64,000 nt of DNA from Candidatus Dormiibacterota bacterium (GTDB taxonomy: Bacteria > Acidobacteriota > Polarisedimenticolia > Gp22-AA2), in contig DASQAT010000043.1 in the NCBI GenBank assembly GCA_035635555.1, positions 1-64,000 of the forward strand, read 5' to 3'. A model generated the notes under the pieces. The model was given only the letters and a program-made list of their open reading frames with translations. It was not told the DNA's origin and searched no databases. The translations under genes and the position numbers were made by a program. Position 1 is the stretch's first letter, and the number at the start of each line of letters is the position of its first letter. Positions 11,275 to 39,183 of the stretch are shown piece by piece.

Positions 11275-11279
11275 GGCGC

Positions 11280-23435: not shown

Positions 23436-25685
23436 TCACCCCGCGGCCGACGAAACCCGCCCGGGTGGTCCCTGGCGCTCGAAGCCGGTGCTCAAGAGGC
23501 GCTCCGCCTGCGACGCCTCCACGGGCTTCGAGAACAGGAACCCCTGTCCGTAGCGGCAGCCGAGATCGAGCAGCTGCTGCATCTGCTCCCTGGTCTCGAT
23601 CCCCTCCGCCACCACCCGCATGCCGAGGTTCTCGGCGAAGCGGAGCACCGTCCGGACGATCTCGAGATTCTTCCGGCTGGCGGACATGTTCCACACGAAG
23701 GAGCGGTCGATCTTGACGGAATCCAGCGGGAACTTGTGCAGATAACCCAGGGAGGAGTACCCGGTCCCGAAGTCGTCCAGGGACAGCTTGACGCCGAGCT
23801 TCTTCAGGCCGGTCAGAATGCCGATGGCCCGCTCGGGATCCTCCATCATGACGCTCTCCGTGACCTCCAGGCTCACGCAGGCGGGGGTGACACCCGTCTC
23901 GCGCAGGATGCGCTCGACCACATCGACGAGGTCCGCCTGGCTGAGCTCCTTGCCGGACAGGTTGACGTTCATCAGGAGCGGCGGCTCGGAGCGGAAGCGA
24001 GCGTGCATGGCCTGGAGCCAGCCCAGGGCGTCCTTCATGCACCAGCGGTCGATGTCGATGATCAATCCCGTCTTCTCCGCCAGGGGGAGGAATTCCGCGG
24101 GGGAGACCAGGGCGCGCTGCGGGTGCATCCAGCGAATCAGGGCCTCGAAGCCGACGATACCGGAGGTGTCGAGGTTCAGGATCGGCTGATAGAAGCTCCG
24201 CAGCTCCCCCTTGCCGATGCCGGAGCGGAGCTCCTTCTCCAGACGCATCTCGTCGATCGCCAGCGAGTGCATCTTGCGCTCGAACAGCACGTGGCGGGCC
24301 CCTCCCTGGTCGCGGGCCTGGACCATCGCGATGCCGGCGTCGCGCAGGAGATCCCCCGCGCCTGCGCCATCCCCCTCGCCGATCGCGATGCCGATGCTGG
24401 CGGTCATCGAGGTCTCCTCCCCCTCGGACCGGAACAGCGTGCCCAGGTCGCTCTGCAGCCGGCCGGCGAAGCGCCCGACGATGTCGGCGCTCTTGCAATC
24501 GAGGATCAGGACGGCAAATTCGTCGGGGCCTATCCGGGCGGCGGCGTGCTCCTCGCGCAGGGTCAATCGCAATTGGTCGGCGACGTGACAGATGAAGCGA
24601 TCTCCGAAGGCGTGCCCGAGGGTGTTGTTGAAGCGTGTGAACCCGTCGAGGTCGAGGGTCAGGACGGCCAGGGGACACCCGGGGCGCGACCCCGCGTCCC
24701 CCAGGGCGCGCCGCAGCTGCTCCGCGAACGAGCGGCGATTGTAGAGCCCCGTGAGCGGATCCCGCGTCAGCTCCTGCTCCAGCCGTTGCTCCGCCACACC
24801 CCTCTCGGTCGCCTCATGGTCGATCTCGAGGCGCGCCCGCGACAGCCGTTCCTTGCGGAGCTCGACCTCTCTTAGGAGCAGCTCCGGCTGACGGAGCAGG
24901 CCGTAGGTCGACAGGCCTATCGCGGCGCCGAAGGCGAGAACCAGCGCCAGGCCCGCGGCGAGGGTCCCGGTCGCGTACCATCCTCCCGAGCCGGCGACGG
25001 CCAGCCGCCAGGCGGCGCCCGGAAGGTTCAGCTCGAAATCGAGGGCGCTCCGGGACAGGCTGGGGGCCCCGAGGAAGGGGGGCCCGCCGTCGGACTCCTC
25101 CCCCGATCGCCGGAGCGCGAACTGGTACCCCGCGTTCCCCAGCAGGTCCAGCCCGCTCGCGCTCAGGACCTGAAGGAGGTCGACCAGCAGGGTGGTCGAG
25201 ACCGGCGGGCCTTCGGCCGTGGCCTCGGTCCGGTGCACCACCAGCACGACCGTGTTGCCGCGCGAAGAGGCGAACGGGCCGCGCACCGCCGTCGCCCCCT
25301 CACCCCGGAAGACCGAGCCGTCGGATCGCCAGAACCGGGTGTCGCGCTCGGGAAACCGCGTCTGATCCACGAACGCGCAGGTGCGCCCGCCACGCGCCTG
25401 CCAGACCCCCTGGATCGAGGCGGATGTCTCGATCAGCCTCTGGAAGAGGGGACGCAGCGCATCGCAGTCGCGATCGTGCGCCACGAGCGCCAGCGTCTCG
25501 CTCACGGCGCCGAGCCGCTCGAACTCGGTCTCCAGGCGGTGACCGAAGGCGGCGCCGATGGTCCGGGCCTGCGCGCGCCGGGTCTCCGCCTCGCGCGCGG
25601 TCGTCGCCCGGAGAAGAGCCGATCCGCAGAGCACGGCGATCAGGGAGGCCACGAGCGCGCGGGTCGAGGCTTTCCTAGTCGTCAT
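23436..25685 (-). CDS. Membrane-anchored GGDEF-EAL protein; GGDEF motif degenerate (GPDEF)
   Basis: A 749-residue c-di-GMP protein. Two membrane segments (about 9-25 and 240-262) flank a periplasmic sensor region of roughly 210 residues, a CHASE-like arrangement. The GGDEF domain (about 310-470) starts with DPLTGLYNRR and has RIGPDEF where GG(D/E)EF is expected, so cyclase activity is doubtful. The EAL domain (about 485-735) keeps EALIRW, NLSGKEL, EVTES, LDDFGTGYSS and VVAEGIET, so it should hydrolyse c-di-GMP. ATG 25685 overlaps the upstream stop by 11 bases. It closes the long polysaccharide-like operon, suggesting that c-di-GMP controls it. Confidence 0.92.
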   Translation of the reverse strand: MTTRKASTRALVASLIAVLCGSALLRATTAREAETRRAQARTIGAAFGHRLETEFERLGAVSETLALVAHDRDCDALRPLFQRLIETSASIQGVWQARGGRTCAFVDQTRFPERDTRFWRSDGSVFRGEGATAVRGPFASSRGNTVVLVVHRTEATAEGPPVSTTLLVDLLQVLSASGLDLLGNAGYQFALRRSGEESDGGPPFLGAPSLSRSALDFELNLPGAAWRLAVAGSGGWYATGTLAAGLALVLAFGAAIGLSTYGLLRQPELLLREVELRKERLSRARLEIDHEATERGVAEQRLEQELTRDPLTGLYNRRSFAEQLRRALGDAGSRPGCPLAVLTLDLDGFTRFNNTLGHAFGDRFICHVADQLRLTLREEHAAARIGPDEFAVLILDCKSADIVGRFAGRLQSDLGTLFRSEGEETSMTASIGIAIGEGDGAGAGDLLRDAGIAMVQARDQGGARHVLFERKMHSLAIDEMRLEKELRSGIGKGELRSFYQPILNLDTSGIVGFEALIRWMHPQRALVSPAEFLPLAEKTGLIIDIDRWCMKDALGWLQAMHARFRSEPPLLMNVNLSGKELSQADLVDVVERILRETGVTPACVSLEVTESVMMEDPERAIGILTGLKKLGVKLSLDDFGTGYSSLGYLHKFPLDSVKIDRSFVWNMSASRKNLEIVRTVLRFAENLGMRVVAEGIETREQMQQLLDLGCRYGQGFLFSKPVEASQAERLLSTGFERQGPPGRVSSAAG

Positions 25686-26481
25686 CGGCCACCACCCCGC
25701 CCTTGGCCGGCCGGCCGGAGAACGGGATGAACCAGGCCGTCGACAGCATCCGTCGCCTGGTGCTCTCCCCCTGGAAACTGGAGGCGGCGACATTCATGCG
25801 GTGCCTTCCCACGGTCAGCGCCACGGTCATGTAGATTTCCGTCGAGCTCTGCGTCTCGCTGCCCGGCGCGCCTCTGTAGGGCACCGTGCGGCCGACGGCG
25901 ACCCCGAAGGTCCAGGTGGCGGAGGTGCCGCGCAGGCTGACGCTTCCGGTCGCGAACTTGTCGTCGAGGTCCCCGCTCATCCCGGTGTACAGCCGCAGGC
26001 CGGCGCCCCAGCGCTGCGCCGCGGTGATGTCGAGCCCGCCCTGCAGCAGCTGCCCCTCGGTGTCGCCGATGTCCAGCCAGCTGTCTCCGAGCACCAGCGT
26101 CACCCGGCCCGGCGCGAGGCCCGCGTACAGTGTCGCGCTGACCTCATTGAAGTCGTCGGATTGCCCGGGAAGACTGGCCTTCCCCAGGCGCATGGAGGCG
26201 TCGAAATGGTGGCGCGCGCCGAACTGGAAGGTGCGGCCGCCCGAGACATAGGCCCAGTGGGCGTCCTCCATGGAGACACCCGCCGCGCCGATCCGGTAGG
26301 AGCCGCCGCGGCCGGCGCCGATCCAGACGACGCTGGTCCCCCAGCCCTTCACTTCGGCGCTCCCGTCGTAGAGATCGGCGTTGAGCATCAGGCTGCCGTC
26401 GGCCGCGAGCGCGGTACCCGGCGCCGCGATCGCCGCCACCAGCAGGGCGCAGGCGCCCGCGCGCAGGCGATTCGTCAACAC
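25675..26481 (-). CDS. Predicted outer-membrane beta-barrel protein (unrecognised family)
   Basis: A 268-residue protein with a clear Sec signal peptide (basic start, hydrophobic core, cleavage near ALAAD at about 24-28). The rest is a series of alternating-hydrophobicity strands with frequent Gly and aromatic residues (for example TSVVWIGAGRGGSYRIG and RVTLVLGDSWLDIG), the look of a 10-14-strand outer-membrane barrel. The family is not recognised. The GTG start at 26481 overlaps the upstream gene by 7 bases; TTG 26478 is an alternative. In a polysaccharide locus it could be an export pore, analogous in position to AlgE or PgaA; that role is inference. Confidence 0.7.
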   Translation of the reverse strand: MLTNRLRAGACALLVAAIAAPGTALAADGSLMLNADLYDGSAEVKGWGTSVVWIGAGRGGSYRIGAAGVSMEDAHWAYVSGGRTFQFGARHHFDASMRLGKASLPGQSDDFNEVSATLYAGLAPGRVTLVLGDSWLDIGDTEGQLLQGGLDITAAQRWGAGLRLYTGMSGDLDDKFATGSVSLRGTSATWTFGVAVGRTVPYRGAPGSETQSSTEIYMTVALTVGRHRMNVAASSFQGESTRRRMLSTAWFIPFSGRPAKGGVVADDD

Positions 26482-27500
26482 GAAGCCTTCCCGCGTCCGG
26501 GAGCGGCTTCCGCGGAGCCGGGAGGCCCGCTCTGGGCCAGCAGCATCTCCTCGAACGTCACCACGACCAGCGGCTCGACCCCCTGGAGGATCCGGTGGGA
26601 GCGCAGATGGCCGACCCGGTACTCGGAGCCGATGCCGTAGCGGCAGCGCAGCAGCTCGGCCTCCTCCCCGCTCATCAAGAGCTGCGGGTCGGTCGGCTCG
26701 ACGAACCGGACGACCTCGAACAGATTGGCCGGTTGCCTGTCCACCAGCATCTGCCTGCGGAAGCTCTCGCTCATGTGAACGATCCCCCCGTCCCCCGGCT
26801 GTACGATCACCCTGGGAAGCGGATCGGTCTCGACCGCCTGCCGGAACAGATTGGGGACATCCTCCGGCCGGGCTCGGAGGCCGGCGCGCCGCGCCAGCGA
26901 GTCGCCGACGCACACGAGCGTCAGAGAGGCGCCGGCAAACAGCAGGAGCGACACGGCGATCTGGGAGGGGGTGGTCGACAGGCCGGTGAACGCCTCGGAG
27001 TCGCGCCGCATCTTGAGGAGATCACCGAGCTCCGCCAGAGGCAGGCCGACCCGGAAGGCCAGCCAGCGCAGCCCCTCCGACTCGGCCAGGGCGACCACCG
27101 TCACCGCGACCCATGACGTGGCCGCGATGCCGTAGGAATGCCACCCCGGGAGCAGCAGGACGTTCGCCAGCAGGACAGGCGCGAACACCCACAGGAAGGC
27201 CGGGTTGTCGACGCCGCCGGCGAGGTGCCAGATCCAGGCGAACGTGACGACGGCGCCGACCTGCATCAACAGCGTCCCGGCGAACATGATCGATCGACCG
27301 GCGGCGCGGTCCAGCAGCCTGGCACCCCCCCAATACGCCACGCCGAAGCAGGCCACCGTCGAGGTGATGCTGCCGAGCGGCAGGCGGTACAGACGCCAGA
27401 GAAATGGCACGACCGCCAGCACGAACCCCACCGTCGCCGAAGTCAGGACGACGCAGTCCAGGATCGCCCGGTCGCTCCGCAGACGCTCGAGACCGGTCAC
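26475..27500 (-). CDS. Polytopic membrane protein with C-terminal PAS-like region, hypothetical
   Basis: A 341-residue protein with about six transmembrane segments between residues 12 and 215 (in pairs, the last near SQIAVSLLLFAGASLTLVC). After them, about 110 cytoplasmic residues look like a PAS-type ligand-binding fold. There is no kinase, cyclase or transporter motif, so it may be a sensor or scaffold for the neighbouring EAL protein and glycosyltransferase. GTG 27500 overlaps the beta-helix gene stop as GTGA. Family not recognised. Confidence 0.75.
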   Translation of the reverse strand: MTGLERLRSDRAILDCVVLTSATVGFVLAVVPFLWRLYRLPLGSITSTVACFGVAYWGGARLLDRAAGRSIMFAGTLLMQVGAVVTFAWIWHLAGGVDNPAFLWVFAPVLLANVLLLPGWHSYGIAATSWVAVTVVALAESEGLRWLAFRVGLPLAELGDLLKMRRDSEAFTGLSTTPSQIAVSLLLFAGASLTLVCVGDSLARRAGLRARPEDVPNLFRQAVETDPLPRVIVQPGDGGIVHMSESFRRQMLVDRQPANLFEVVRFVEPTDPQLLMSGEEAELLRCRYGIGSEYRVGHLRSHRILQGVEPLVVVTFEEMLLAQSGPPGSAEAAPGRGKASC

Positions 27501-28747
27501 GGCCCGGGACTCTTGGCCGGAGCGACGCGGTATTCGCCGAGCACCGGGCCGTCCTGCAGATTGCCCTGCAGCGTGTTGTTCTCCAGGGAAGGGTTGGCGG
27601 CGACCTGCCGGCCCTGCGGGAAAACGTACGTCAGGACACGCACTCCGGCCGCGCTGCTGCTCATCACCCGGTTGTTCCGGAGGCTGGGAGAGCTGCCGAC
27701 GATGAACAGGCCATCGACCGTCTGGCCCATCAGGACGTTGTCCACGATGAGATTGGGGTTGCCCACGGCTCCCAGAATGATGGCGATGCCGTAGCCGTTC
27801 GAGTGCACGCGATTGGCGCGTACCATCGCGCTCGACGACGAGCGCAGCAGCACGCCCATGCTGGCGTTGTGGTCGATCTCGTTGTCGACGAGCGACAATC
27901 CGTGCGTGTCCTCCGCCTGCACGCCGATGGCCCCGGACCCTATCCGATTGTGCTGGATCACGGCCCCGCGGCCGCTCACGAACACCGCCGTCTCGCGCGA
28001 CTTCGTGAAGCCGTTGTTGGACAACAGCGCGCCGACGTTGATGATGCCCGCCCCGATCCGGTTCTCGACGAACTCGTTGTCGCGCACGATGAGGCGCGGC
28101 TCCCCCGGGCCGGCGTCCGCCGGCCCCACCGCCCAGATCCCGGCCGAGAGCTGGCGCGCGAAGGAGCTCTTCTGCACCGTGACCGTGCCCCCCGAGGCGA
28201 TCTGGATGCCGGTCCCGTTCCCCTCGAACCGCGAGCCGTCCACGATCAGCTCCCGGACCTGATCGCCGATCTGGATGCCGATGCCACAACCGGAGATCTC
28301 GACGTTGGTGACGGCGACCGCGCCGCCGCGGATCAGGATCGCGGCTCCGCCCACGTGGACCAGCTTCAGGCCGGAGAACGACACATGGGGGCTGACCACG
28401 TCGAACAGCGGGCCATCCTTCGACAGATCGGCCCGGATTTCCGTGTTCTTCCCGCCGTCGATCACGACCCCGGCGGGATTCACGAGGGGCGGCAGAGGGG
28501 TCCGGACGGTGATGCTGCGTGTCTGGAACTGGATGCGCGCGCGCCCGTTCGCCAGATTCGAATCGAAGATCGCCTGGCGCAGACTGCCGACTCCGACGTC
28601 GTCGCCGTTGGTCACGAGGATCAGGCGCGAGGTCGCGAGAGCGGGTCCGGGCTCGCCGGCATCCGTCAGCCATTGCGCGGACATCCCGACGAAACCGACG
28701 ACCAGAAGCAGAGCGAGTGCGGCAACGTTCCGACCGTCGAGTCTCAT
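27497..28747 (-). CDS. Secreted right-handed parallel beta-helix protein (NosD/pectate-lyase fold)
   Basis: A 416-residue protein with an N-terminal signal or signal-anchor (residues 6-28). From about 80 to 390 it consists of repeated short turns with N and G at regular spacing (ISGCGIGIQIGD, IRDN/VRDNEF, NNGFTKSRETAVFVSG, VDNEIDHNASMGVLL), the pattern of the parallel beta-helix repeat family. Such proteins are often polysaccharide epimerases, lyases or glycan-binding factors. I do not find the DPHD motif of alginate epimerases. ATG 28747 overlaps the methyltransferase stop as ATGA. Its place in the operon suggests action on the exported glycan (inference). Confidence 0.85.
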   Translation of the reverse strand: MRLDGRNVAALALLLVVGFVGMSAQWLTDAGEPGPALATSRLILVTNGDDVGVGSLRQAIFDSNLANGRARIQFQTRSITVRTPLPPLVNPAGVVIDGGKNTEIRADLSKDGPLFDVVSPHVSFSGLKLVHVGGAAILIRGGAVAVTNVEISGCGIGIQIGDQVRELIVDGSRFEGNGTGIQIASGGTVTVQKSSFARQLSAGIWAVGPADAGPGEPRLIVRDNEFVENRIGAGIINVGALLSNNGFTKSRETAVFVSGRGAVIQHNRIGSGAIGVQAEDTHGLSLVDNEIDHNASMGVLLRSSSSAMVRANRVHSNGYGIAIILGAVGNPNLIVDNVLMGQTVDGLFIVGSSPSLRNNRVMSSSAAGVRVLTYVFPQGRQVAANPSLENNTLQGNLQDGPVLGEYRVAPAKSPGP

Positions 28748-29547
28748 GGGGCACCCTCCTGCGCGTGGGCCAGCACGAAGAGCTTGTGCCAGGACCGGGC
28801 GACGAGCCGTCGTCCGGCTATCCAATCGATCGGAGCCGCCGCCGCCGACGCCAGTGCGAGCAGCGGCCAGCCGAGAAGCCGGGGCAGCCGCTGGTACAGG
28901 ACGACGGCCGGCAGCTTGAAGCGGGCCGGGTCGACGCCGGTCATGTGAAGACAGGCCAGCCCGGCTCGCGAGAACAAGGACAGGTAGGTCCCCGACGTAC
29001 GCGCCCTGAAGGCGGCGTGGTCGTAATCGCGCACCTCGCGCGCCGGCGCGGCCTCCAGGACGACCATCCGGCCGGCCGGTGCCAGGTGCTCCGCCAGGCG
29101 GCGAATCGCCTCGCCGGCGGCCGCCTCATCGAGGATGTGCTGCAGGACGGTCACTGCCACGATCCGATCGAAGGTCCGATCGAGCCGCAGCGCGGCCAGG
29201 TCGCCGACCCTGAAGCGACAGCGGTCGGCGACTCCTTCACGCCGGGCCCGCCGCGCGGCCTCGCCGATCATGACCGGAGACAGATCGACGCCGCTCACCA
29301 GGGCCCCGCGCGCCGCCATCAGGCGGCTCCACCGACCCACTCCACAGCCCGCATCGAGGACGGTGCTCCCTTCCGGCATATCGAGCCAGGGGAGCAGCGC
29401 CAGACGCTGACTGTGGTGGATCAGCGAGTTGTAGAATGCCGGCATCCCGAAGGAGCAGACGGCCGCGAGTCCCCGGCCGGCCCCCGCGAAGCTGCGCGCC
29501 CGGTTCTCCCAGTACTCCGCGAGCGAAGCGACCGGCAGGCTGCTCAT
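28744..29547 (-). CDS. SAM-dependent class I methyltransferase
   Basis: A 267-residue protein with the Rossmann methyltransferase motif I VLDAGCGVGRWS around residues 64-75, motif II acidic end at VSGVDLS, and VLQHILDE in the post-motif region. The C-terminus has a hydrophobic stretch near 225-245 that may bind membrane. The closest general type is the UbiE/COQ5-like Methyltransf_11/25 group. Substrate unknown; within this operon it could O-methylate a sugar or lipid carrier. ATG 29547 overlaps the glycosyltransferase stop as ATGA. Confidence 0.88.
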   Translation of the reverse strand: MSSLPVASLAEYWENRARSFAGAGRGLAAVCSFGMPAFYNSLIHHSQRLALLPWLDMPEGSTVLDAGCGVGRWSRLMAARGALVSGVDLSPVMIGEAARRARREGVADRCRFRVGDLAALRLDRTFDRIVAVTVLQHILDEAAAGEAIRRLAEHLAPAGRMVVLEAAPAREVRDYDHAAFRARTSGTYLSLFSRAGLACLHMTGVDPARFKLPAVVLYQRLPRLLGWPLLALASAAAAPIDWIAGRRLVARSWHKLFVLAHAQEGAP

Positions 29548-30950
29548 GGGCTCGACAGCACCGAGTGCGTGGAGCCGGGGTGGTCGTAATGATCGTCGTA
29601 CACCCGCCGCCCGCGCAGGCGCAGGCTCAGCCAGTTCAGGTACCCCACGGTGGTCGGGACGACGAGAGCCAGCGCGTAGAAGAAGAACAGCGGCACCGCC
29701 GGACCGAGGCGGGCCCGCTCCGGGCGCTTGATCGCGGTCAGGAGCAGGACCGTCATCAGCAGGGTGTACTGCACGTACGCGATCACGAAATGGGACGGAT
29801 CGGTCATCGGAGTGTCCGGGACCAGATCGAGCCCGAAGAGGACATCGACGCCGTTCAACGTGCTGAGCAGCAGCGTGAGCAGCATGAGCAGGCGGATCGG
29901 GTGAAGCGCGATGGAGAGACCGGCGGCGTAGACCAGGAAGTGGTAGGTCGTCGACGCGTCACGGCGCCAGAACGATCGGATGCGCGGCAGCTGCGTCGCG
30001 TAGACGTGCAGCAGGCCGAAATACCAGCCGACGCGCTGCGAGAACAGGTCTCTCCAGGTCCGTTTGGGAACCGTCTCGAAGACCAGCCTTTCGTCGTAGT
30101 AGATGCGCTCCTTCCCGGAGAGAAGGATGATCGCGTTCTCGAAGTCCTCCGCGTAAACGGTGAGATCGTGCTTGTCGAGCACCGACTCGAGGGCGTCCCG
30201 CCGATAGATCGACAGACCGGAGGTGACGCAGTGATCCCCCAGACTCTTGCGCAGCACGGAGAACGTCAGGCCGTACTCCAGGGCCTGCAGAGTCGGCAGC
30301 AGCCCCGCCTCGACGATGCGGATGCGCGGCGTCAGCGCCGCCATGCCGCTGCGCTGGAACTCGAAGATCCGGCGCTCCAGGCCGCCGAGCATGAGGACGT
30401 CGTCCGCCAGGCGACAGTCGGGATCCATCACGATGACCGTCCGCACCGCCGGATCGACCTGGCGCAGCAGCTGGCGGATGGCCCCCGGCTTCTTCTGGTT
30501 CTGCGCGCCCCGCACGCAGCGAAACCCGGCGCGCAGCAGGACCTGCGCCGTCGAATCGGTCGAGGCGTCGTCGATGATCCAGACCCGGTCCTTGAACGGC
30601 AGCATCGCCTCGATGAAGTCCTCCACCTGGTCGGCCATGTCGTGGACGGCCAGCAGGAACGCATACCCTTTCAGGTGAAGTGCGACCTGGGCATCGGTGA
30701 ACCTGCCGATGCCGACCGGCACGGATGTCGGGCAGGCACCGCCGCGGGGCCGTCCCGTGTGCACGCGGAGCAGGACGCGGCGCACGATCAGATCGAACAG
30801 ATCGGCGAACAGCATGAAGTTGGCCAGAAAGTACACGCCGGCATAGAGCGGCCCCGCGAACGAAGTGACCCAGACGATCGCCAGCACGAGCGCCGCGCAT
30901 CCGGACCCCAGCACGACACGCCGCCGCAGGACTTCGGGCAGGGACGTCAC
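29544..30950 (-). CDS. Membrane GT2 glycosyltransferase, processive-synthase-like
   Basis: A 468-residue protein. Two N-terminal membrane helices (about 12-55), a GT-A catalytic domain (about 85-330) and about four C-terminal helices (340-450). Catalytic elements: WIIDDASTDST (first Asp), VIVMDPDCRL (DxD-like), YAEDFENAI (general base) and SQRVGW, a partial form of the QxxRW motif of processive synthases such as Alg8, PgaC and hyaluronan synthase. It may therefore polymerise and translocate a glycan, but the incomplete QxxRW leaves a single-transfer role possible. GTG 30950 overlaps the GNAT gene stop as GTGA. Confidence 0.9.
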   Translation of the reverse strand: MTSLPEVLRRRVVLGSGCAALVLAIVWVTSFAGPLYAGVYFLANFMLFADLFDLIVRRVLLRVHTGRPRGGACPTSVPVGIGRFTDAQVALHLKGYAFLLAVHDMADQVEDFIEAMLPFKDRVWIIDDASTDSTAQVLLRAGFRCVRGAQNQKKPGAIRQLLRQVDPAVRTVIVMDPDCRLADDVLMLGGLERRIFEFQRSGMAALTPRIRIVEAGLLPTLQALEYGLTFSVLRKSLGDHCVTSGLSIYRRDALESVLDKHDLTVYAEDFENAIILLSGKERIYYDERLVFETVPKRTWRDLFSQRVGWYFGLLHVYATQLPRIRSFWRRDASTTYHFLVYAAGLSIALHPIRLLMLLTLLLSTLNGVDVLFGLDLVPDTPMTDPSHFVIAYVQYTLLMTVLLLTAIKRPERARLGPAVPLFFFYALALVVPTTVGYLNWLSLRLRGRRVYDDHYDHPGSTHSVLSSP

Positions 30951-31855
30951 ATTCGATCTCCCGGCTGGATCCGCCACTCCACGCCGCGCCAGGGGCTGCC
31001 CGGCGATGCGGCGGCCGGCTTCGCGCGGCCGGTGACGAGCAGGGCGAAGTGGCCCGGTTTGCTGGTCATTCCCGGCGGCCCTGTCCTCTCCGGTGCCGTC
31101 TCTTCGAGCGCGAAAGCGAGGAAGCCTCGATCGGCTCTCCGGGCGCGCAGGACCAGGGCCTCCAGTGCCGCCCGTCTTTCCGCCGGCGGGCCGATCAGCA
31201 GCTGCAGCCGGTCGGTGTCGCCGGTCCGCTCGACGATCGCCGCGCAGTCGCCGATCGCGAGCGTCTCCACCGGGTCGGGACGTTCGATGAACTGCCCCCT
31301 CCAATCCAGACGACCCGGATAGTCGAAGCACGCCGCGTTTTCTACGGGTTCGCGCGCGGCCGCGGACTGGATCGTTGCAGGCGGGACGGAGCGCACGCGG
31401 GGCGTCTTACCGATCGCCGGCAGCCGCGAGCTCGCAGGCTCGAACGAGATGTAAGACGTCGGCAGCATGTGCGCTCCGAGCCTCCTGAGAACACGGCCGC
31501 TGGAGTTGTCCTCTCTCACGAACGCCAGGGCCAGAGCGCGGCCCCGGCGGGCGACGACGCCGATGGCGGACTCGATCAGCCTGCTGAACAGGCCGCGGCC
31601 CCGGGCCTTCGGGGCCGTCCATCCGGCGGTCAGGATCGCCGCGGCGACCGTCCCGCCGCCGGCCAGGCGGACCGACCGGTAGTTCACCCCGACGCCCGAC
31701 ACGATGCGTCCTCCCTCGCGCATGACCAGCAGGTCGGGAGGCCGCCCCGCGAAGGCGCGCCGCAGGTAGAACCGGTACATCGAGCGCGTCCACCACAACC
31801 CGGACCCGGCCCGGAGAGATCGGAGGTAGCGATCGTCCAGGTCCGGCGGATTCAA
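30947..31855 (-). CDS. GNAT-fold N-acyltransferase, hypothetical
   Basis: A 302-residue protein. Residues 20-150 show GNAT features: a beta-strand pair around DLLVMREGGRIVSGVG, the acetyl-CoA loop in APKARGRGLFSRLI (pattern Q/RxxGxG/A) and VREDNSSGRVLRRLG with the conserved Asn. The second half may be a second, degenerate GNAT-like unit. The only start consistent with the tight spacing is TTG 31855, which overlaps the deacetylase stop as TTGA. It could acylate an amino sugar exposed by the neighbouring deacetylase (inference). Confidence 0.8.
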   Translation of the reverse strand: MNPPDLDDRYLRSLRAGSGLWWTRSMYRFYLRRAFAGRPPDLLVMREGGRIVSGVGVNYRSVRLAGGGTVAAAILTAGWTAPKARGRGLFSRLIESAIGVVARRGRALALAFVREDNSSGRVLRRLGAHMLPTSYISFEPASSRLPAIGKTPRVRSVPPATIQSAAAREPVENAACFDYPGRLDWRGQFIERPDPVETLAIGDCAAIVERTGDTDRLQLLIGPPAERRAALEALVLRARRADRGFLAFALEETAPERTGPPGMTSKPGHFALLVTGRAKPAAASPGSPWRGVEWRIQPGDRM

Positions 31856-32820
31856 TTCGACCGCGCCCGCTCCGGGCTCAGCAGCCGGTCCGCGATCTGC
31901 CCGAACGAGGTCCACCACAGGTCCTCCCCGAAACGTCGATCGAGCTCCGAGAACAGGAGATCGAGATAGTTGCAATAGGCGTCGTCCAGACCGTCCAGCA
32001 TCGAGTGCCCGCCCCCGCTCTTGAAGATGTGCGCCTTGATCGCCAGCAGACCGCGGCACCCGACGATGCTGAGGGCGCGCTCCAGCCGGGACGTCGCCTG
32101 GAAGTTGTGGGTGAAGTGCACGAGCCGGCCGTCGTCCATGATGCCCGGGCGCAGCAGCGGAAAGTCGCGCAGCGCGCAGGAGCGCGTGACCGCCTCCGGG
32201 GTGGCCGCTGTCGTGAGATCGCGGGCCGAGCAGACGAACGTGAACCCGAGGTCCCCCAGCGCCCCGGCGAGCGGCGGAGTCAGATTCCAACCCGGCGGCT
32301 GGAAGCCGCGCACGTAGGACAGCCTGGCGGCATCGAAGATGTCCAGCGCCCGCCGCAGCATGCCGCAGCACTCCTCGCGGTCCTGCTCCTGGAATTCGAC
32401 GGTGAGGCGCTGTCCGGGATGGAGGTGATGCAGCCCGTGCGGCGCCACCTCCGCGCGGGGCAGGGCGCTCAGATAGCGGACGAACTCCGGGAAGCGATCG
32501 ATCCGCATTTCGTTTTTAGGGCGGACCGGGGCGAGATGCATCCGCCGCCTCACGATCGGAATCCGCGCCAGCAGCCGGCGGGTCGGATGCAGGCCGAGCG
32601 GACGCCAGTCCGGCGTGACGAACAGCGTGGCCCGCAGCTTCGGATGCCTGTCGAGAAGGCGGGCGAGACGGCCCAGCGCTCCCCGCCCGAGGTCGCCGCC
32701 CGCTTCGTACGGGTCGGTCGAGGTCGAGGGATGGATGTCATCGACGCTGAAGCAGACCGCGGCGGTCTTCCCGGAAGGGAGCCAGCGAACGGCGTCCGGC
32801 GCCGGCGGCCGCATGCTCAT
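31852..32820 (-). CDS. Polysaccharide deacetylase-like (NodB-fold) protein
   Basis: A 322-residue protein with the NodB-type metal-dependent deacetylase layout: the opening strand ends in FSVDDIHPS with the catalytic-base/metal Asp pair, a later AEVAPHGLHHLHPG carries the H-x3-H type metal site, RGFQPPGWN resembles motif 3, and VHFTHNF is near the end. It lacks a signal peptide, so it would act in the cytoplasm, unlike PgaB. ATG 32820 (MSMRPP) overlaps the radical SAM stop as ATGA; ATG 32826 is an alternative. Likely substrate: an N-acetylated sugar of the locus product. Confidence 0.82.
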   Translation of the reverse strand: MSMRPPAPDAVRWLPSGKTAAVCFSVDDIHPSTSTDPYEAGGDLGRGALGRLARLLDRHPKLRATLFVTPDWRPLGLHPTRRLLARIPIVRRRMHLAPVRPKNEMRIDRFPEFVRYLSALPRAEVAPHGLHHLHPGQRLTVEFQEQDREECCGMLRRALDIFDAARLSYVRGFQPPGWNLTPPLAGALGDLGFTFVCSARDLTTAATPEAVTRSCALRDFPLLRPGIMDDGRLVHFTHNFQATSRLERALSIVGCRGLLAIKAHIFKSGGGHSMLDGLDDAYCNYLDLLFSELDRRFGEDLWWTSFGQIADRLLSPERARSN

Positions 32821-34493
32821 GGACATGCGAGCGCCTCGCGCGGCGACAGGAGAGCGCCCCGGAGCGTTTTCATTCCGGCGCCGGTGGGGGCGCCGGGCAG
32901 GTGCGCCAGAAGCTCGTCCACGATCTCTTCGCTTCCGGGAGTGGAGTGCCCCGCTTCGGAAAGGACGCGCATCGCGCACAGGATCCACAGGAACGAGCGC
33001 AGGCGCGACGGCATGTGCGCGGCATGCCTCTGAAGACTCCGGCGCTGCAGCTCGAAGGCGGCTTCGATCGCCACGATCACCCCGCGCGCCTCCGGGTCGA
33101 TCGGCAGGATCTTCGCCGGCTGGTCCCAGGAGATGCCGGTGCCGGCGATGCTCTGGCGCGTGAAGACCGTCCACGGGACAAGCTCCGGGTCGCCAGCCAT
33201 GACGGCGCCCGAGAACGGGATCACGTAGGGATACATCCCCACCTCGCAGCCGGCGACCATCCATTGGAAGGCCTGCCGGATGGTCTCCGCCAGATCGTCC
33301 AGGCGGCTTCTCGGCGAAGTCAGGATGATGTCCAGGAACGGCGTTATCCCGAGCTCCAGGGCCGTGGCGAGCACCTCCCGGACATGCGGGTGGATCTGTG
33401 CCTTGTTGAATTCCTTCAGGACCTCGAGCGAGAAGCTCTCTATGCCGAAGCCCAGGACGCGGAATCCGGCCCGGCGCATGGCCGTGAGCCGCTCACGGTT
33501 CATCGCGTCGACACGATTGGTGCTGATGAATTGAAGGTCGTCAGGGAGATCGCCGGATCGCTTGGCCGCCAGGATCGCCTCGCACAGCGGCAGGATGCGT
33601 TGGTCCTGGCGGAATACGAAGATGTCGTCCTGGAAGATGACCGTCCGCACTCCGGGCTGGGCCGCGACGATACGGCGCAACATGGCGAGGCATTCCTCCG
33701 CCTCGAGCCGGGCGATGCGCGCCGTCCCCCCTTGCGCCGCGTGCAGGAAATTGGTCGAAGAGCAGAAGGTGCATCCCATGGGGCAGTAGTTGAGGGTGAT
33801 CAGCCGGACCGAGCGGATCTCCGCCAGGCGCGCTTCCCTCTCGGCCTTGTACGGCAGATCGCCGACGCGGTAGCAGCGTTCCAGCTTGTCCCAGTACGAG
33901 CGGTACGGCATCTTTTCATAGGGGATCCGGAAGATCGCGTCGCGCAGCGCCGGGCGTTCCATGGCGGTGCGCGGCAGCCTCGCGAGATCTCCGTCGTCGC
34001 GCATGAATGCCGTTCCAGGGATGCCGTGCAGGAGGCTCCCCGCCCGCAGCCGGCGGCCGATCTCGAGCAGCGGGCCCTCCCCCTCTCCGAGCACGACGAG
34101 ATCGAACGGCGCCAGGCGGAACAACTCCCGCGGCTTGAAGGTCGCCTCCATGCCGCCGGCGACGAGCAGGGCCTCCGGCAGCACCCTGCGGGCGAGATGC
34201 GCCAGGGCCAGGTCGTAGCGCAGCGTCATGCCGGTCGTGGAGAACCCCAGCACGTCCCAGGAACGGGCCCGCAGCCGTTTTTCGAGCGCCTTCTCCGGCG
34301 CCTCACCGGCACAATTCGGGTCGAATACCTGGACCTCGAACCCGGCTGCCTCCAGCGTTCCGGCCAGCCGCCACACACCCAGGGGCGGGGCCAGGAAGGT
34401 GAATTCGCCGCCGGTGGGATCGTAGGGACCTACGAGCAGAAAACCTGGCGCAGGTCGAGGGGAGAGCGGCTCTCTATTGCTGATCGGGGACAT
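32817..34493 (-). CDS. Radical SAM protein with N-terminal cobalamin-binding-like domain
   Basis: A 558-residue protein. Residues 15-150 have the Rossmann-like B12-binding fold typical of this superfamily but without the DxHxxG axial-ligand motif. The radical SAM core (about 225-440) has the cluster motif CPMGCTFC (CxxxCxxC), followed by FQDDIFVF and GFGIESFS. The family includes methyltransferases and ring-contracting or rearranging enzymes acting on lipids and sugars. About 100 helical residues follow the core. ATG 34493 lies inside the 3' end of the hybrid kinase gene (20-base overlap), tying its expression to the phosphorelay genes. Confidence 0.9.
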   Translation of the reverse strand: MSPISNREPLSPRPAPGFLLVGPYDPTGGEFTFLAPPLGVWRLAGTLEAAGFEVQVFDPNCAGEAPEKALEKRLRARSWDVLGFSTTGMTLRYDLALAHLARRVLPEALLVAGGMEATFKPRELFRLAPFDLVVLGEGEGPLLEIGRRLRAGSLLHGIPGTAFMRDDGDLARLPRTAMERPALRDAIFRIPYEKMPYRSYWDKLERCYRVGDLPYKAEREARLAEIRSVRLITLNYCPMGCTFCSSTNFLHAAQGGTARIARLEAEECLAMLRRIVAAQPGVRTVIFQDDIFVFRQDQRILPLCEAILAAKRSGDLPDDLQFISTNRVDAMNRERLTAMRRAGFRVLGFGIESFSLEVLKEFNKAQIHPHVREVLATALELGITPFLDIILTSPRSRLDDLAETIRQAFQWMVAGCEVGMYPYVIPFSGAVMAGDPELVPWTVFTRQSIAGTGISWDQPAKILPIDPEARGVIVAIEAAFELQRRSLQRHAAHMPSRLRSFLWILCAMRVLSEAGHSTPGSEEIVDELLAHLPGAPTGAGMKTLRGALLSPREALACP

Positions 34494-36009
34494 GGTGATC
34501 GAGGCGGTGGAGAATCGTCCGCAGGTCGTCCAGGGTGAACGGTTTCGAAAGGCAGGAGTTCTCGACAGAGTCCAGAAATTCGAGAGTTTCCGGATTCACC
34601 AGGTCACCGGTAATAAAGACCACCCGCTCGGCCATCGCCCGATCGTGCTTGTCCAGATGCTTGTAGAACTCGATACCCGTCATGCCGCCCAGCCGCAGAT
34701 CGGTCAGGAGGAGGTCGTAGCGCCGCGCCGCGACCTTCTGCATCGCCACCTCCGCCGAGGTCGCCGTGTCGACCTTGTGGCCGTCGAAGGTCAGGAAGGC
34801 GACGAGCATGTCCTGAATCGCCGGATCATCGTCGACGACCAGGACATCGATGGCGCGTGCCGCCGGACTGGGGGACCCCTTCACCTCCTCGCCATCGGAT
34901 GGCGCCTTGGCCGGCCTGAGGATCGGCAGCTCGATGACGAAGCGCGCGCCCCCCTCGGGACGGTTCTGCGCGCAGATCGTCCCCCCGTGCTCGGCGATGA
35001 TGCCGTGGCAGATGGCCAGGCCGAGCCCGGTGCCGATCCCGATCGGCTTGGTCGTGAAGAACGGCTCGAAGACCTTCTGCAAAGCGGTGCGGGGAATTCC
35101 CGGTCCGTCGTCCTCGATGGTCACCTGAATCCCGATCCCCGCATTCCGCGTCACGATGCGCACCGTGCCTGCATCCTTCTGCGAGCGCATCGCCTGCTCG
35201 GCGTTGTTGAGAAGATTGAGCAGGACCTGCTGAATCTGATGGAAGTCGAGGAGCGTCAGGGGAAGTCCCGGCTCGAGGTCCGTCTGGAGCGCGATGTGGT
35301 TCATCTGGAAGTCGTGCACCTTGAGCTCGAGGGTCTTCAGCACCAGACCATTCAGACCCAGATACATCCGCTCCGGCGGAGACTTGCGGGCGAAGGTCAG
35401 AAGGTTCTTGACGATTCGGGAGGCCCGCATCGACTCGGACGAGATGACCTCGAGCGCCCGGCGGAACCCGGGGTCGCCGTTCTGCGCGCTGAGGAGCTGC
35501 GCGTACCCCATGATGCTGGTCAAAGGGTTGTTCAAGTCGTGCGCGACTCCGGAGACCAGCTGCCCCAGCGCCGACATCTTCTCGCTCTGAAGCAGCTGTT
35601 CTTTCAGACGCCACTCGCTGGTCGCGTCGCGCAGGATGCTGACGAAGTACGGACCGTTTCCGGATGCCGAGGGAAGCGAGTGCGAGGCGACCGAGATGGA
35701 GATCTGCTGGCCGTCCTTTCGCTTGAAGGGAGCGGTCCGTTCGGATGTCTCCGGATCGATCTCTCCGGCTCGAACCGGCCGGGGCTGACCGAGATGGAGC
35801 CCCAGGGTCGAGAGGTGCTTCTCGAGCAGGTCGTCAGGCGGATAGCCCAGCAGGTTCTCGGCCGCGCGGCTGACGTACACGATGTGCCCCGATGCATCCG
35901 CCACGACGACGCACTCGCGCATCAAGTCCAGAATCCGGGACAGAATGGCGGCATCATCCAGCGAGGCCTCTGGTACTGGACGATGTCGTGGTTTCGATAC
36001 TCTTGCCAA
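34474..36009 (-). CDS. Hybrid sensor kinase: PAS-HisKA-HATPase-receiver
   Basis: A 511-residue cytoplasmic hybrid kinase. PAS at about 20-135 (VVVADASGHIVYVSRAAENLLGY is its typical entry), HisKA with phospho-acceptor His157 in GVAHDLNNPLTSI, HATPase with N-box LLNLLNNAEQA, DDGPGIP and GTGLGLAI, and a C-terminal receiver (about 390-505) with VVDDDP and phospho-acceptor Asp in LLLTDLRLGG. The start is TTG 36009, with AAGGAG four bases upstream. With the two single-domain response regulators just upstream it forms a local phosphorelay at the head of the polysaccharide-like operon. Confidence 0.94.
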   Translation of the reverse strand: MARVSKPRHRPVPEASLDDAAILSRILDLMRECVVVADASGHIVYVSRAAENLLGYPPDDLLEKHLSTLGLHLGQPRPVRAGEIDPETSERTAPFKRKDGQQISISVASHSLPSASGNGPYFVSILRDATSEWRLKEQLLQSEKMSALGQLVSGVAHDLNNPLTSIMGYAQLLSAQNGDPGFRRALEVISSESMRASRIVKNLLTFARKSPPERMYLGLNGLVLKTLELKVHDFQMNHIALQTDLEPGLPLTLLDFHQIQQVLLNLLNNAEQAMRSQKDAGTVRIVTRNAGIGIQVTIEDDGPGIPRTALQKVFEPFFTTKPIGIGTGLGLAICHGIIAEHGGTICAQNRPEGGARFVIELPILRPAKAPSDGEEVKGSPSPAARAIDVLVVDDDPAIQDMLVAFLTFDGHKVDTATSAEVAMQKVAARRYDLLLTDLRLGGMTGIEFYKHLDKHDRAMAERVVFITGDLVNPETLEFLDSVENSCLSKPFTLDDLRTILHRLDHHVPDQQ

Positions 36010-36087
36010 GGCTTCTCCTTGGGGCGGTTGCGCCCAAGGCGATCAAGATAGAGCCGGGATCAGGCGACCGCCAGAGAGTAGAAATAC

Positions 36088-36486
36088 CTAGGTCGACTCG
36101 CAGTAGCCGTCGAGAATGTCGGACAGACGCGTGAAATCGAACGGTTTGGCCAGGACAGGGACACCCGTCTCCAGCGCCCGCTGATGCACCGGATGGCGCT
36201 CGTCCAGCCCCGTGATGAAGATCGTGCGTTCCGCGAGCTCCCGGTTGATTCGTTTGATCTGGTGGAACAGGAAAACACCGTTGATGTCCGGGAAATTCAG
36301 GTCGAGGACCAGACAATCATGCGACTTGGTCATGGCCTCGACGATGGCATCCAGGCAGTCCGAGGCGGGGTCCACCTTGAATCCCTTGTGCAGAAGAAAT
36401 TCCGAGAGGCAGTCCCGGATCGACGACTCGTCGTCGACGAGCAGGACCCTTCTCGGACGTTCGGATTGAGTCGCGTCTCGTTCCAT
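36088..36486 (-). CDS. Single-domain response regulator
   Basis: A 132-residue stand-alone receiver: VDDESS near the N-terminus, phospho-acceptor Asp in LVLDLNFPD, Thr in FITG and the Lys in LAKPFD. It has no output domain, so it should pass phosphate to, or compete with, the hybrid kinase encoded 78 bases downstream. ATG 36486 is chosen for its GGAGGA Shine-Dalgarno sequence; ATG 36504 would overlap the preceding stop as ATGA and add six residues. Confidence 0.88.
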   Translation of the reverse strand: MERDATQSERPRRVLLVDDESSIRDCLSEFLLHKGFKVDPASDCLDAIVEAMTKSHDCLVLDLNFPDINGVFLFHQIKRINRELAERTIFITGLDERHPVHQRALETGVPVLAKPFDFTRLSDILDGYCEST

Positions 36487-36500
36487 CGTTTCTCCTCCGA

Positions 36501-36953
36501 TCATGACTCGAGCTCCATCTGCTGAAGGGCCGCCACAACCTCATAGACCCGGCTGGGCTTCAGCAGGACAGGACAGCCTTCCTCCCTCATGAGGCCCAGC
36601 TCGGGATAGCGATCGGCCGCGGCGGTGAGGAAGGCCACGCGGCGAGCCAGGCCGGGCCAGTGGGCCTTGAGCCGGTAGTAGAAGAGGATCCCGGTGCTGT
36701 CCGGGAGGGCGAGGTCCAGAACTACGAAGGAATACTGGTTCGACGCCAGCTTCTCCCCTGCCTCGCGGCAGGTCCGGGCTATGTCCACGTCATAACCGTG
36801 GACGCCAAGGCCAAGAGACAGGACTTCCGCGACAGCGTGATCGTCGTCCACAATGAGCACGCGACGCCGCTGCTGGCTGAGCGCCTGGGGCCGGTCCCGA
36901 CGGACTCGAACGCCCTTCGGGAGCCAAGGTTCAATCAACGCCTGGATTGTCAT
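36501..36953 (-). CDS. Single-domain response regulator with short N-terminal extension
   Basis: A 150-residue receiver preceded by about 30 basic residues. IVDDDHA carries the acidic pocket, Asp in VVLDLALPD is the phospho-acceptor, Thr is in FLTAAA and Lys in LLKPSR. No DNA-binding domain. ATG 36953 is preceded by GAGAGGAG; the longer open frame into the AT-rich promoter is not likely coding. It is the first gene of the block that extends leftward to 23436 and has a distinctive promoter upstream. Confidence 0.88.
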   Translation of the reverse strand: MTIQALIEPWLPKGVRVRRDRPQALSQQRRRVLIVDDDHAVAEVLSLGLGVHGYDVDIARTCREAGEKLASNQYSFVVLDLALPDSTGILFYYRLKAHWPGLARRVAFLTAAADRYPELGLMREEGCPVLLKPSRVYEVVAALQQMELES

Positions 36954-36995
36954 GGTCTCTCTCGCTCCTCTCTCTTCTGTATTCAAATGGGTAAA

Positions 36996-37071
36996 TTTAT
37001 AACATATGCATATTTGATAAAATAGCAATGCATAATTTGTAATATGACTATGCAACTAACGATAGATTTCA
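36996..37071 (-). promoter_or_regulatory. AT-rich promoter region with three ATGCA elements 22 bp apart
   Basis: Bases 36975-37070 are strikingly AT-rich compared with the surrounding DNA. On the minus strand TGTTATAAA (box at 37001-36996) is an extended -10, predicting a start near 36989 for the response-regulator operon. Upstream, ATGCA occurs at 37006, 37028 and 37050, exactly 22 bp apart; the first two units also share AT-rich sequence after it, and the first is within the palindrome ATATGCATAT (37004-37013). Two helical turns of spacing would put all three on one face of the DNA, as for cooperative regulator binding. Confidence 0.45.
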
Positions 37072-37098: not shown

Positions 37099-39183
37099 TC
37101 AGGCGGCGCCGGCCGACACGCGAGCCGGCAGCGGGACGCGCGGTCCGCGCGTCATGACCCTCTCACCGAAATAGCGCGCCAGCGGCTCGCCGCCCGGCCG
37201 GATGCCCAGCTCCCAACAGAGATGGTCCGGCGCCCGGCCGGAACAGCTCAGGTGGCGGGCGTGCAGCCCCTCCTGGTGGTGACCGACACAGAGCGTGACC
37301 AGGTTGTCCTCGTCATCGCTCCCCTGCTGCGACCGGAAAATGATGTGGTGCTCGTTCAGGCCGCTACGCGAGGTGCAGCCGGGCACCCTGCAGCGCCAGC
37401 CGTCGCGCTCGAAGATCCGATAGCGCCTCTTGAATTGAGGGTCGTCCGCGTTGTCCCAGGTGTCGCGCAGCGCGCGGACGAAGAGAAGGAAGCACTCCCA
37501 GTCGTCGAGCCTCGTCCCGGCGGCGGCGCGACACGCGCGCAGGGCGCTGTCCCAGAGCGCCGCGACATCCAGAGGGGCCCAGAAGGCGATCCGCCGCCAG
37601 GATTGCCGGCCGATCGACGCCACGACCGACCCCTCGGGACCGGACAGAGGCGCCGACGTGTGCAGATGCGTGTCGCCGGGTCGATCGGGCGCCGATGTGT
37701 GCAGGCATGCAGGATCGGCCGGCGCGCGGCCGACTTCACCCGGTGAAGGATCGACCGGCGGGAGCGGAGACGCGCCGACGTGTGCAGCTCCGGCGCCCTC
37801 GACCTCGCACACGATGACGGCCTCCTCGAGACGGCGAACCGTCACCTGACGCGCGTAGCGTATCCAGCGACTCTGGGTGGCCGGAGAGACGACGCGCACC
37901 AGGAGTCGCGCCTGGCACCAGGAGACGATTCCGCGGCGGTAGGCGTCGGCCACGAGCGGCAGACCACGCAGCCGCCGATCGAGCGCCATCAGATAGCGGG
38001 CGCGGCGGAGTGACATCGGAAGACGGTTGCCGATCCAGTCGTCGAGGGAGGCGAACCCCAGCTCGCGGTGCAGGCGCGATGAGGCGAACGCCGCGAGGAG
38101 ACGCCCCTGCCGCCAAGCGAGCGATTGCCGCTGCCGCACCAGCCTCCGGAGCAGCGCGTCGAGATCCCACGCGTCGACCTCGTCGTCCCCGCCGCCGGGC
38201 GGCGGCACCGACATGATCGCCTCGAGGTCAGCCGCCGCGCCGAGCGAAGCGAGGGCCTCCCGCACCGCGTCGCACGCCTCGATCCACGCCGCCGGCTCCG
38301 AGGCATCCGGACCGGCGACGCCGGAGTCCGGCTCCGCCCCTCTCCCCCTGTCCTCCCCCGTCGCGCCGTGCGGACCTTTGGCGTCAACCGCGGCGTCGAA
38401 CGCCTGGGCGAGGCCCGATGCCGAAGCCTTCGGCTGGATACAGGAGACGTCGGGCACTCCGGAGAGGAACTCGGCCGCCAAATACTCGGCACAGCGCCAG
38501 GCCGGCTCCTGCTGCCCGGCGACCCGCCGCACCAGATCCAGCGTCCAGTGCCAGACGCCGACGACCGACGCCGGCGCCGAGAGAGACAGGAGACGGCCCG
38601 GCTCGTCCTGCTCGATGGTCTCCGATGCGGACGCGACCGCCGCCCCGGCCGGTGGAGCCTGCCCGTCCGCGGGCGCCACCGCCCCGGCAGTCGTGTCGCC
38701 GCCGGCGCCCGCCGCACGGACCACGTCCCGCAGGAGGGTGACGGTCAGACTACGGGCCCGCTCGAGCCAGAAGGCCTCCGACTCCGCCGTCGCGACGCCG
38801 GCGACCGATTCTACCTTGGAGAGCGACACCTCGCCCGCCTGCAGCGCCAGCCCGAGGCCAGGGAGAGATTCGACGATCCGCTCGAGACGGAGGATCGATT
38901 GACATCTACGCAGGCTCATCCCGAGCCGCTCGGTCAGGTAGTCGCCGAGACGGACATATCCCAGAAGACGGTAGAGCCGCTGCGAACGCAGGCGCTGCAG
39001 GCCCGGCGCCAGACGACGATCGACGAGCGTGCCGGCACGACCGATACGAAGGAGAGTGCGTTCGAGGAGATGCGCCGCGAGCAGGCGGGACACGCCGGCC
39101 GGTGCGGGCTGCAAGGTCGCGGCCGGCGGCTGCTGAGTGGAGAGAGCACGGATCGCGGAAGCATCGACGCCTGGCCGGAGCAC
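37099..39183 (-). CDS. HNH endonuclease-like protein with internally duplicated body
   Basis: A 694-residue protein. The C-terminus has a zinc-type HNH nuclease site: C598, C603, H612-H613 in LNEHHI and H635-H636 in CVGHH. The body contains two diverged copies of one module: about 66-245 and 367-575, each opening with L-x-R-x-LG-(Y/F)-x-x-L-x-(D)-(Y/W)-(L/I) then (G/P)MSLRR, and each containing an A-P-x-x-V-x-x-(L/V)W segment. A low-complexity linker with two HTSAP copies (495-512) lies between the second module halves. Such proteins are common but poorly understood; some are in mobile or defence contexts, neither evident here. GTG 39183 has a full AAGGAGGT Shine-Dalgarno sequence. Confidence 0.88.
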   Translation of the reverse strand: MLRPGVDASAIRALSTQQPPAATLQPAPAGVSRLLAAHLLERTLLRIGRAGTLVDRRLAPGLQRLRSQRLYRLLGYVRLGDYLTERLGMSLRRCQSILRLERIVESLPGLGLALQAGEVSLSKVESVAGVATAESEAFWLERARSLTVTLLRDVVRAAGAGGDTTAGAVAPADGQAPPAGAAVASASETIEQDEPGRLLSLSAPASVVGVWHWTLDLVRRVAGQQEPAWRCAEYLAAEFLSGVPDVSCIQPKASASGLAQAFDAAVDAKGPHGATGEDRGRGAEPDSGVAGPDASEPAAWIEACDAVREALASLGAAADLEAIMSVPPPGGGDDEVDAWDLDALLRRLVRQRQSLAWRQGRLLAAFASSRLHRELGFASLDDWIGNRLPMSLRRARYLMALDRRLRGLPLVADAYRRGIVSWCQARLLVRVVSPATQSRWIRYARQVTVRRLEEAVIVCEVEGAGAAHVGASPLPPVDPSPGEVGRAPADPACLHTSAPDRPGDTHLHTSAPLSGPEGSVVASIGRQSWRRIAFWAPLDVAALWDSALRACRAAAGTRLDDWECFLLFVRALRDTWDNADDPQFKRRYRIFERDGWRCRVPGCTSRSGLNEHHIIFRSQQGSDDEDNLVTLCVGHHQEGLHARHLSCSGRAPDHLCWELGIRPGGEPLARYFGERVMTRGPRVPLPARVSAGAA

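Follow-up and report, generated by a model that had tools for sequence, protein, structure and literature searches.

A gene run on the minus strand of a 64,000-nucleotide stretch of Acidobacteriota DNA (the window; contig C43 of a 4.28 Mb genome, G000) holds a core of seven parts: a B12-binding radical S-adenosylmethionine (SAM) enzyme, a membrane GT2 glycosyltransferase, a methyltransferase, a beta-helix protein, a PAS sensor, a probable outer-membrane barrel and a cyclic di-GMP (c-di-GMP) enzyme. On balance, we think that this operon makes a surface glycan or glycolipid, tailors it in the cytoplasm and exports it under local c-di-GMP control. The locus is best read as a variant of the c-di-GMP-linked kind of glycan export, rather than as a member of the alginate/poly-N-acetylglucosamine (PNAG) class. 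We base the surface-glycan reading on the same-order core, its co-occurrence and class-wise trees, the invariant GT2 residues, profile matches to AlgG and NosD, fold matches of the barrel to barrels only, a sensor-GGDEF fusion, an intact EAL domain, NodB-GNAT pairs in ABC-transporter loci, and a neighborhood rich in glycan genes.

Gene content, order and domain make-up were read directly from the window. All 12 reading frames (23436–36953) were present where the preliminary description had placed them, including the exact coordinates of the barrel. They are listed here with two neighboring genes:

36501–36953, minus strand: lone receiver 1 (RR1; Response_reg, 1.6e-13)
36088–36504, minus strand: lone receiver 2 (RR2; a receiver by direct reading of the sequence, with a 4-bp overlap with RR1)
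34474–36009, minus strand: soluble hybrid histidine kinase, PAS-HisKA-HATPase-receiver (Pfam)
32817–34493, minus strand: B12-binding radical SAM enzyme, core (PF02310, 3.4e-19; PF04055, 2e-13)
31852–32826, minus strand: NodB-superfamily (DUF2334) deacetylase, accessory (PF10096, 8.9e-7)
30947–31861, minus strand: GNAT acyltransferase, accessory (PF13527, 6.9e-9); start uncertain, as the frame used begins at GTC and is open further upstream
29544–30950, minus strand: membrane GT2 glycosyltransferase, core (PF00535 in 6/6 members)
28744–29547, minus strand: SAM-dependent methyltransferase, core (PF13649, 2.2e-20)
27497–28747, minus strand: exported right-handed beta-helix protein, core (PF13229, 5.8e-27)
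26475–27500, minus strand: polytopic membrane sensor with PAS-like tail, core (alignment, transmembrane segments, weak RegB/ActS similarity)
25675–26481, minus strand: probable outer-membrane beta-barrel with signal peptide, core (all-beta model, Foldseek)
23436–25685, minus strand: membrane-anchored GGDEF-EAL protein (Pfam, motifs)
22146–23339, minus strand: DegT/DnrJ-type sugar aminotransferase, possible operon extension (PF01041, 4.3e-117)
21025–22182, minus strand: UDP-GlcNAc 2-epimerase, WecB type, possible operon extension (PF02350, 5.6e-107)

The near-continuous coupling described earlier was borne out. From RR1 to the GGDEF-EAL gene, the gaps are −4, 78, −20, −10, −10, −4, −4, −4, −4, −7 and −11 bp; the 78-bp gap separates RR2 from the hybrid kinase, and all other neighbors overlap (4–20 bp). 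The domain assignments also proved right, with three refinements: a B12-binding domain in the radical SAM protein, the DUF2334 branch for the deacetylase, and a sensor for the membrane protein. No Pfam or NCBIfam family was found for the sensor or the barrel. Past the operon, minus-strand genes continue after 96 bp with the DegT aminotransferase, the WecB-type epimerase and a histidine kinase with a GAF domain (19139–23339); neither the DegT nor the WecB-type gene accompanies the core at the other loci described below. An Rfam scan of the window returned zero families.

Recurrence and co-occurrence of the core were likewise observed directly. Searches for relatives of four parts (radical SAM, GT2, deacetylase and barrel) turned up five further loci. 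The core thus recurs in near-identical order in six Acidobacteriota genomes (window included) of three classes, and searches within the classes (41, 193 and 149 genomes) gave exactly two carriers in each. All six genomes carry the radical SAM (B12), GT2, methyltransferase and beta-helix genes, followed, where the contig permits, by the sensor, the barrel and, mostly, the GGDEF-EAL gene. The order is radical SAM, methyltransferase, NodB, GNAT, GT2, helix, sensor, barrel and GGDEF/EAL in G010 (L008), a relative from the window's own taxonomic order; radical SAM, GT2, methyltransferase and helix, then the contig end, in G238 (L021); a tetratricopeptide repeat (TPR) protein, radical SAM, GT2, methyltransferase, helix, a sensor/PAS/GGDEF fusion, barrel and kinase in G437 (L024); and radical SAM, GT2, methyltransferase, helix, sensor, barrel and GGDEF/EAL in G576 (L039). 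For G588, contig C307 (L038) runs from radical SAM through GT2, methyltransferase and helix to the sensor at the contig end, and contig C105 (L044, 5052 bp) carries barrel, GGDEF/EAL, NodB and GNAT; the two probably join, because the end of C105 cuts the barrel gene. Its recurrence, in content and in order, across five other genomes shows the gene run to be more than chance.

The preliminary description had proposed looking for conserved co-occurrence of the GT2, helix, barrel and radical SAM genes, and had named homologues scattered over unrelated loci as the contrary outcome. Radical SAM (E ≤ 1e-60) and GT2 (E ≤ 1e-25) genes were found in an identical 3 of 396 Acidobacteriota genomes, in searches that scored few candidates per genome and in which absences are not certain. 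The helix and barrel genes stand with them in the recurring order, and a core kept in order across six genomes and three classes is not a scatter. The radical SAM protein is by far the most conserved (58–64% identity in all pairs); the values are 45–54% for the methyltransferase, 30–55% for the beta-helix protein and 25–53% for the sensor. Trees of the radical SAM and GT2 proteins both pair the genomes by class (six taxa; support 0.51 to 1.0). An old unit with many losses would fit these trees better than a recent spread, which is not proof; support in the methyltransferase and beta-helix trees was too poor to decide between the two. A scan of genome contigs with two narrow patterns matched an Acidobacteria AA152 contig only, which does not show absence outside Acidobacteriota, and plasmid-collection searches (72,556 records) gave remote matches only.

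Conservation thus upheld a unit of seven parts rather than the twelve-gene unit first proposed. RR1, RR2 and the hybrid kinase have no conserved-position orthologue in the other loci, which places the phosphorelay, formerly counted as part of the system, outside the core; other kinases, differently placed, flank the L021 and L024 loci. The deacetylase and GNAT genes are accessory. Just upstream of the radical SAM gene of G576 (L039:13460–14776) lies a gene for a secreted protein that, by eye, looks like a retropepsin-type aspartic protease.

The GT2 protein has two N-terminal and about four C-terminal hydrophobic segments. Its motifs DD, DPD, AED and QRxGW are the same in all six members, the last of them standing in for QxxRW (R to G throughout). 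Its AlphaFold model, with a predicted local distance difference test (pLDDT) score of 53, matched hyaluronan synthase 8smm (2.9e-5), ArnC 8vxh (9e-5), BcsA 5ej1 (1.6e-4) and CvHAS 8sne (1.8e-4) at template modeling (TM) scores of 0.26–0.39, and the matches span processive (HAS, BcsA) and non-processive (ArnC, DPMS) enzymes. The model would therefore support a membrane GT2, with polymer and lipid-linked product both compatible with it. Similarity to PgaC was weak (1.2e-8), and a PDB search with a six-sequence profile gave cellulose synthase at E 0.1 amid chance matches. The membrane GT2 of the preliminary description retains most processive-type active-site residues, but its model is of low confidence and its motif is QRxGW, not QxxRW.

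The radical SAM protein combines an N-terminal B12-binding domain (PF02310) with a radical SAM domain (PF04055), its CxxxCxxC motif is intact in 6/6 genomes, and it has the domains and motifs of the B12-dependent (class B type) enzymes. DxHxxG was absent; such absence is common in the B12-dependent class. NCBIfam scores were all far below cut-offs, for models of C- and P-methyltransferases, BchE, HpnR, HpnJ (TIGR03471; 40.5 bits vs. a cut-off of 577.6), AprD4 and ladderane enzymes, and its relatives of solved structure are AprD4 (4.1e-6) and TokK, a methyltransferase (5e-4). Judged by its gene neighborhood, the enzyme may C-methylate or deoxygenate a sugar. No signal peptide or membrane segment was seen in the radical SAM (judged by sequence), NodB, GNAT or methyltransferase proteins, and these tailoring enzymes therefore probably act before export. 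Alginate and PNAG are modified in the periplasm.

The deacetylase (Pfam DUF2334) carries the metal and catalytic motifs of the NodB superfamily (DD, HxxxH, PPGW and KAH), and DD, HxxxH, PPGW and xxxH are invariant in four aligned members. Its gene is also present in L008, L019, L020 and L044, always adjacent to GNAT. The window and G010 have the pair between radical SAM and GT2, G588 has it after the EAL gene, and two fully spanned loci, G437 and G576, lack it. It also occurs in two Acidobacteriota loci (L019 and L020) with Wzm/Wzt-like ABC-transporter genes, GT4s and DegT. By this distribution, NodB-GNAT is a movable accessory module. An initial view that it accompanies the operon only in the window's class was overturned by G588. 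The L019 and L020 pairs (L019:9993–11653; L020:8804–10407), in polysaccharide loci of another class, look like a recurring two-gene deacylation/re-acylation module. In G588, a frame that by eye resembles a diaminopimelate/ornithine-type pyridoxal phosphate decarboxylase directly follows GNAT and is cut by the contig end (L044:1–471).

Enzymes of these kinds also work together in two glycolipid pathways. Nod-factor synthesis uses NodC, NodB, NodA and NodS (PMC5080398), and shares with our locus a GT2, a cytoplasmic deacetylase, an acyltransferase and a SAM methyltransferase, but has no counterpart to the radical SAM, beta-helix, barrel or c-di-GMP enzymes. The hopanoid cyclitol-ether pathway (HpnI, HpnK and HpnJ; PMC5462960) shares a GT2, a deacetylase and a B12-binding radical SAM enzyme acting on a sugar, but lacks the exported beta-helix and barrel. 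These likenesses lie in the way of working, not in family membership. If the operon were a pathway of either type, it would make a glycolipid or short lipid-linked oligosaccharide that is tailored in the cytoplasm before export. The same combination of activities, the lack of signal peptides on the tailoring enzymes, the lipid-carrier enzymes (ArnC, DPMS) among the GT2 fold matches, and the HpnR, HpnJ and ladderane models among the radical SAM matches would suit this, but we regard it as doubtful. Among 72,556 plasmid records (tblastn, E < 0.001), neither a NodC-annotated match to the GT2 nor any match to the deacetylase was found, so that no rhizobial NodC or NodB orthologue is recognizable there; the HpnJ score is far below its cut-off; the beta-helix and barrel have no role in either pathway; and NodB-GNAT is absent from two fully spanned loci.

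The beta-helix protein has an N-terminal hydrophobic segment and matches only Beta_helix/NosD in Pfam. A six-sequence profile matched the AlgG structures 4nk8 and 4ozy (6.6e-5 to 9.5e-5) as well as NosD structures, making AlgG its best solved-structure relative and its similarity that of an AlgG-like right-handed beta-helix, in which no active site was recognized. The catalytic motif of the mannuronan C5-epimerase AlgG is DPHD (PMC4444821); the window protein has QAED at the aligned position, and DPH occurs in none of the six members. AlgG-type C5-epimerase activity is therefore unlikely: of the AlgG-like epimerase proposed earlier, the export and the fold stand, but DPHD is lacking. The barrel protein has a signal peptide, an all-beta model (pLDDT 48) and orthologues in G010, G437, G576 and G588. 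All its Foldseek matches with E < 0.001 are outer-membrane barrels (TM < 0.45), so the structure prediction proposed earlier gave a barrel, at low model confidence and low TM. The product of 25675–26481 is a probable outer-membrane beta-barrel.

The membrane protein shows weak similarity to the sensor region of RegB/ActS kinases (0.011 in the window, 8.8e-6 in G437). In G437 its orthologue runs on into PAS and GGDEF domains with an intact RxxD/GGDEF, and this fusion is a predicted diguanylate cyclase. A polymerase or flippase was dropped as a candidate for this protein, because its orthologue is a PAS-GGDEF sensor. In the separate GGDEF-EAL proteins (orthologues in L008, L039 and L044), the GGDEF site is degenerate (GPDEF in the window and G010, GGDKF in G576, SPDEL in G588) and EAL/EVL and DDFGTG are intact, as in a probable c-di-GMP phosphodiesterase; the degenerate site might serve as a c-di-GMP receptor. 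The TPR protein of G437 (L024:4520–6910; 796 aa) has a lipoprotein-like start and adjoins the radical SAM gene, and its best NCBIfam match, below cut-off, is PrsT of XrtA/PEP-CTERM loci. It was dropped as a core part, having no relative at E < 1e-15 in G000 or G010.

We next compared the locus with known export systems. Four parts define Gram-negative synthase-dependent exopolysaccharide systems, among them an inner-membrane processive polysaccharide synthase, a c-di-GMP-binding receptor/co-polymerase, a TPR scaffold and periplasmic polysaccharide-modifying enzymes (PMC7112194). With alginate (Alg8/Alg44/AlgK/AlgE/AlgG), the locus has in common a membrane GT2, a periplasmic AlgG-related beta-helix, an outer-membrane barrel and a c-di-GMP link; it lacks Alg44/PilZ, AlgK/TPR and DPHD, its barrel has no detectable sequence family, and it adds radical SAM and cytoplasmic tailoring enzymes. 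With PNAG (PgaABCD), it shares a weakly PgaC-similar GT2 and a same-superfamily deacetylase, but PgaB is periplasmic and PgaA has TPRs, whereas the deacetylase here is cytoplasmic and optional and there is no PgaD. The E. coli Nfr system (NfrB-NfrA-YbcH, plus DgcJ and WecB; PMC8669469) also has an inner-membrane GT2, an outer-membrane protein, an inner-membrane-anchored periplasmic protein, a local c-di-GMP enzyme and a link to a WecB-type epimerase, encoded here directly downstream of the operon and not seen beside the core in the other five loci. Nfr has no radical SAM, methyltransferase, deacetylase or beta-helix, and our locus has no MshEN domain.

Membership in the alginate/PNAG class, as first proposed, therefore held only in part. 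The conserved unit, membrane GT2, AlgG-related helix, probable barrel and c-di-GMP enzymes agree with it, but the TPR scaffold, c-di-GMP receptor and DPHD are missing, the GT2 has QRxGW, and the tailoring enzymes look cytoplasmic, unlike PgaB and AlgIJFX. In a true synthase-dependent system, a processive GT2 would make and translocate a polymer, the beta-helix protein would epimerize or modify it, and the barrel would secrete it. We consider this unlikely, even with hyaluronan synthase at the head of the GT2 fold matches and cellulose synthase among them, the PgaC similarity, the AlgG-like helix, the GGDEF/EAL domains and the TPR protein beside the operon in G437. That protein was not found in G000 and G010, no PilZ, MshEN or PgaD-like partner was recognized, QxxRW is replaced in all six GT2s, DPHD is absent, and four modifying enzymes that look cytoplasmic are hard to reconcile with synthesis-coupled extrusion. 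Literature searches for radical SAM and exopolysaccharide with deacetylase or Acidobacteria found nothing; the gene set matches no described system that we found, and the operon is, as far as found, undescribed.

The following scheme is inferred as regards the substrate and product, the sequence of steps, the passage through the barrel and the effect of c-di-GMP. The membrane GT2 would build a sugar chain at the inner membrane, or transfer a sugar there to a lipid carrier. While still in the cytoplasm, in the form of a nucleotide sugar or of a lipid-linked glycan, the sugar would be altered by the B12-radical SAM enzyme and the methyltransferase; the likeliest changes are C-methylation or ring/deoxy chemistry, together with O- or N-methylation. 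Where carried, NodB-GNAT would swap an acetyl group for another acyl group. In the periplasm, the product would then be handled by the membrane-anchored beta-helix protein, and at the outer membrane the barrel would let it pass or anchor it. The PAS sensor and the GGDEF-EAL protein (here a probable phosphodiesterase; in G437 a fused diguanylate cyclase) would set c-di-GMP locally. Several points weigh against this scheme. The GT2 and barrel models are both of low confidence, and a crude home-made score of beta-alternation failed to tell the barrel apart from shuffles or from other proteins. No barrel was found in G238, where the contig stops after the beta-helix gene. The core has no flippase or ABC exporter, which leaves the inner-membrane crossing of a non-processive product unexplained. 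The operon contains no TPR gene, and no scaffold was found in the window genome; nor did any operon protein match PilZ, MshEN, PgaD or BcsB (Pfam/NCBIfam).

A Wzx/Wzy-type exopolysaccharide island lies nearby (42400–63914), with Wzc-like, Wzy_C and Wzx-like genes, two GT4s, a phosphoglycosyltransferase, DUF354, two asparagine synthases and NTP_transf_5; in its middle (49.1–57.7 kb), GC content at third codon positions is ~0.6 vs. 0.9 around it, which suggests transfer. The core could be an accessory to this island (42–64 kb) that modifies its polymer, given the Wzc-, Wzy- and Wzx-like genes, GT4s and phosphoglycosyltransferase next door and DegT and WecB directly downstream of the operon. This is quite improbable, as the core occurs in G437, G576 and G588 without Wzx/Wzy genes in the stretches read, and a GT2 and barrel of its own would be superfluous.

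Acidobacteriota are among the commonest soil bacteria, and their surface glycans are little known. If the glycan-export reading is true, the coupling of a B12-radical SAM enzyme, a membrane GT2 and outer-membrane export would imply chemistry unseen in known exopolysaccharides. More tentatively, the operon may represent an additional kind of bacterial glycan export that stands alongside Nfr and the five classical synthase-dependent systems. In it, a cobalamin-dependent radical SAM enzyme would place an unusual sugar (C-methylated, deoxy or rearranged) in a surface polymer or glycolipid that is then exported, with c-di-GMP exerting control locally. The operon offers a natural comparison between a sensor on its own and the same sensor fused to a diguanylate cyclase, and supplies defined genes for direct testing of the glycan or lipid product.

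Elsewhere in the window, a 1502-aa reading frame (8233–12741) has zero Pfam matches. Between the operon and an asparagine-synthase gene lies a gene for a 797-aa HNH-endonuclease protein (37099–39492) whose halves are apparently duplicated, and the start of the asparagine-synthase gene overlaps it.

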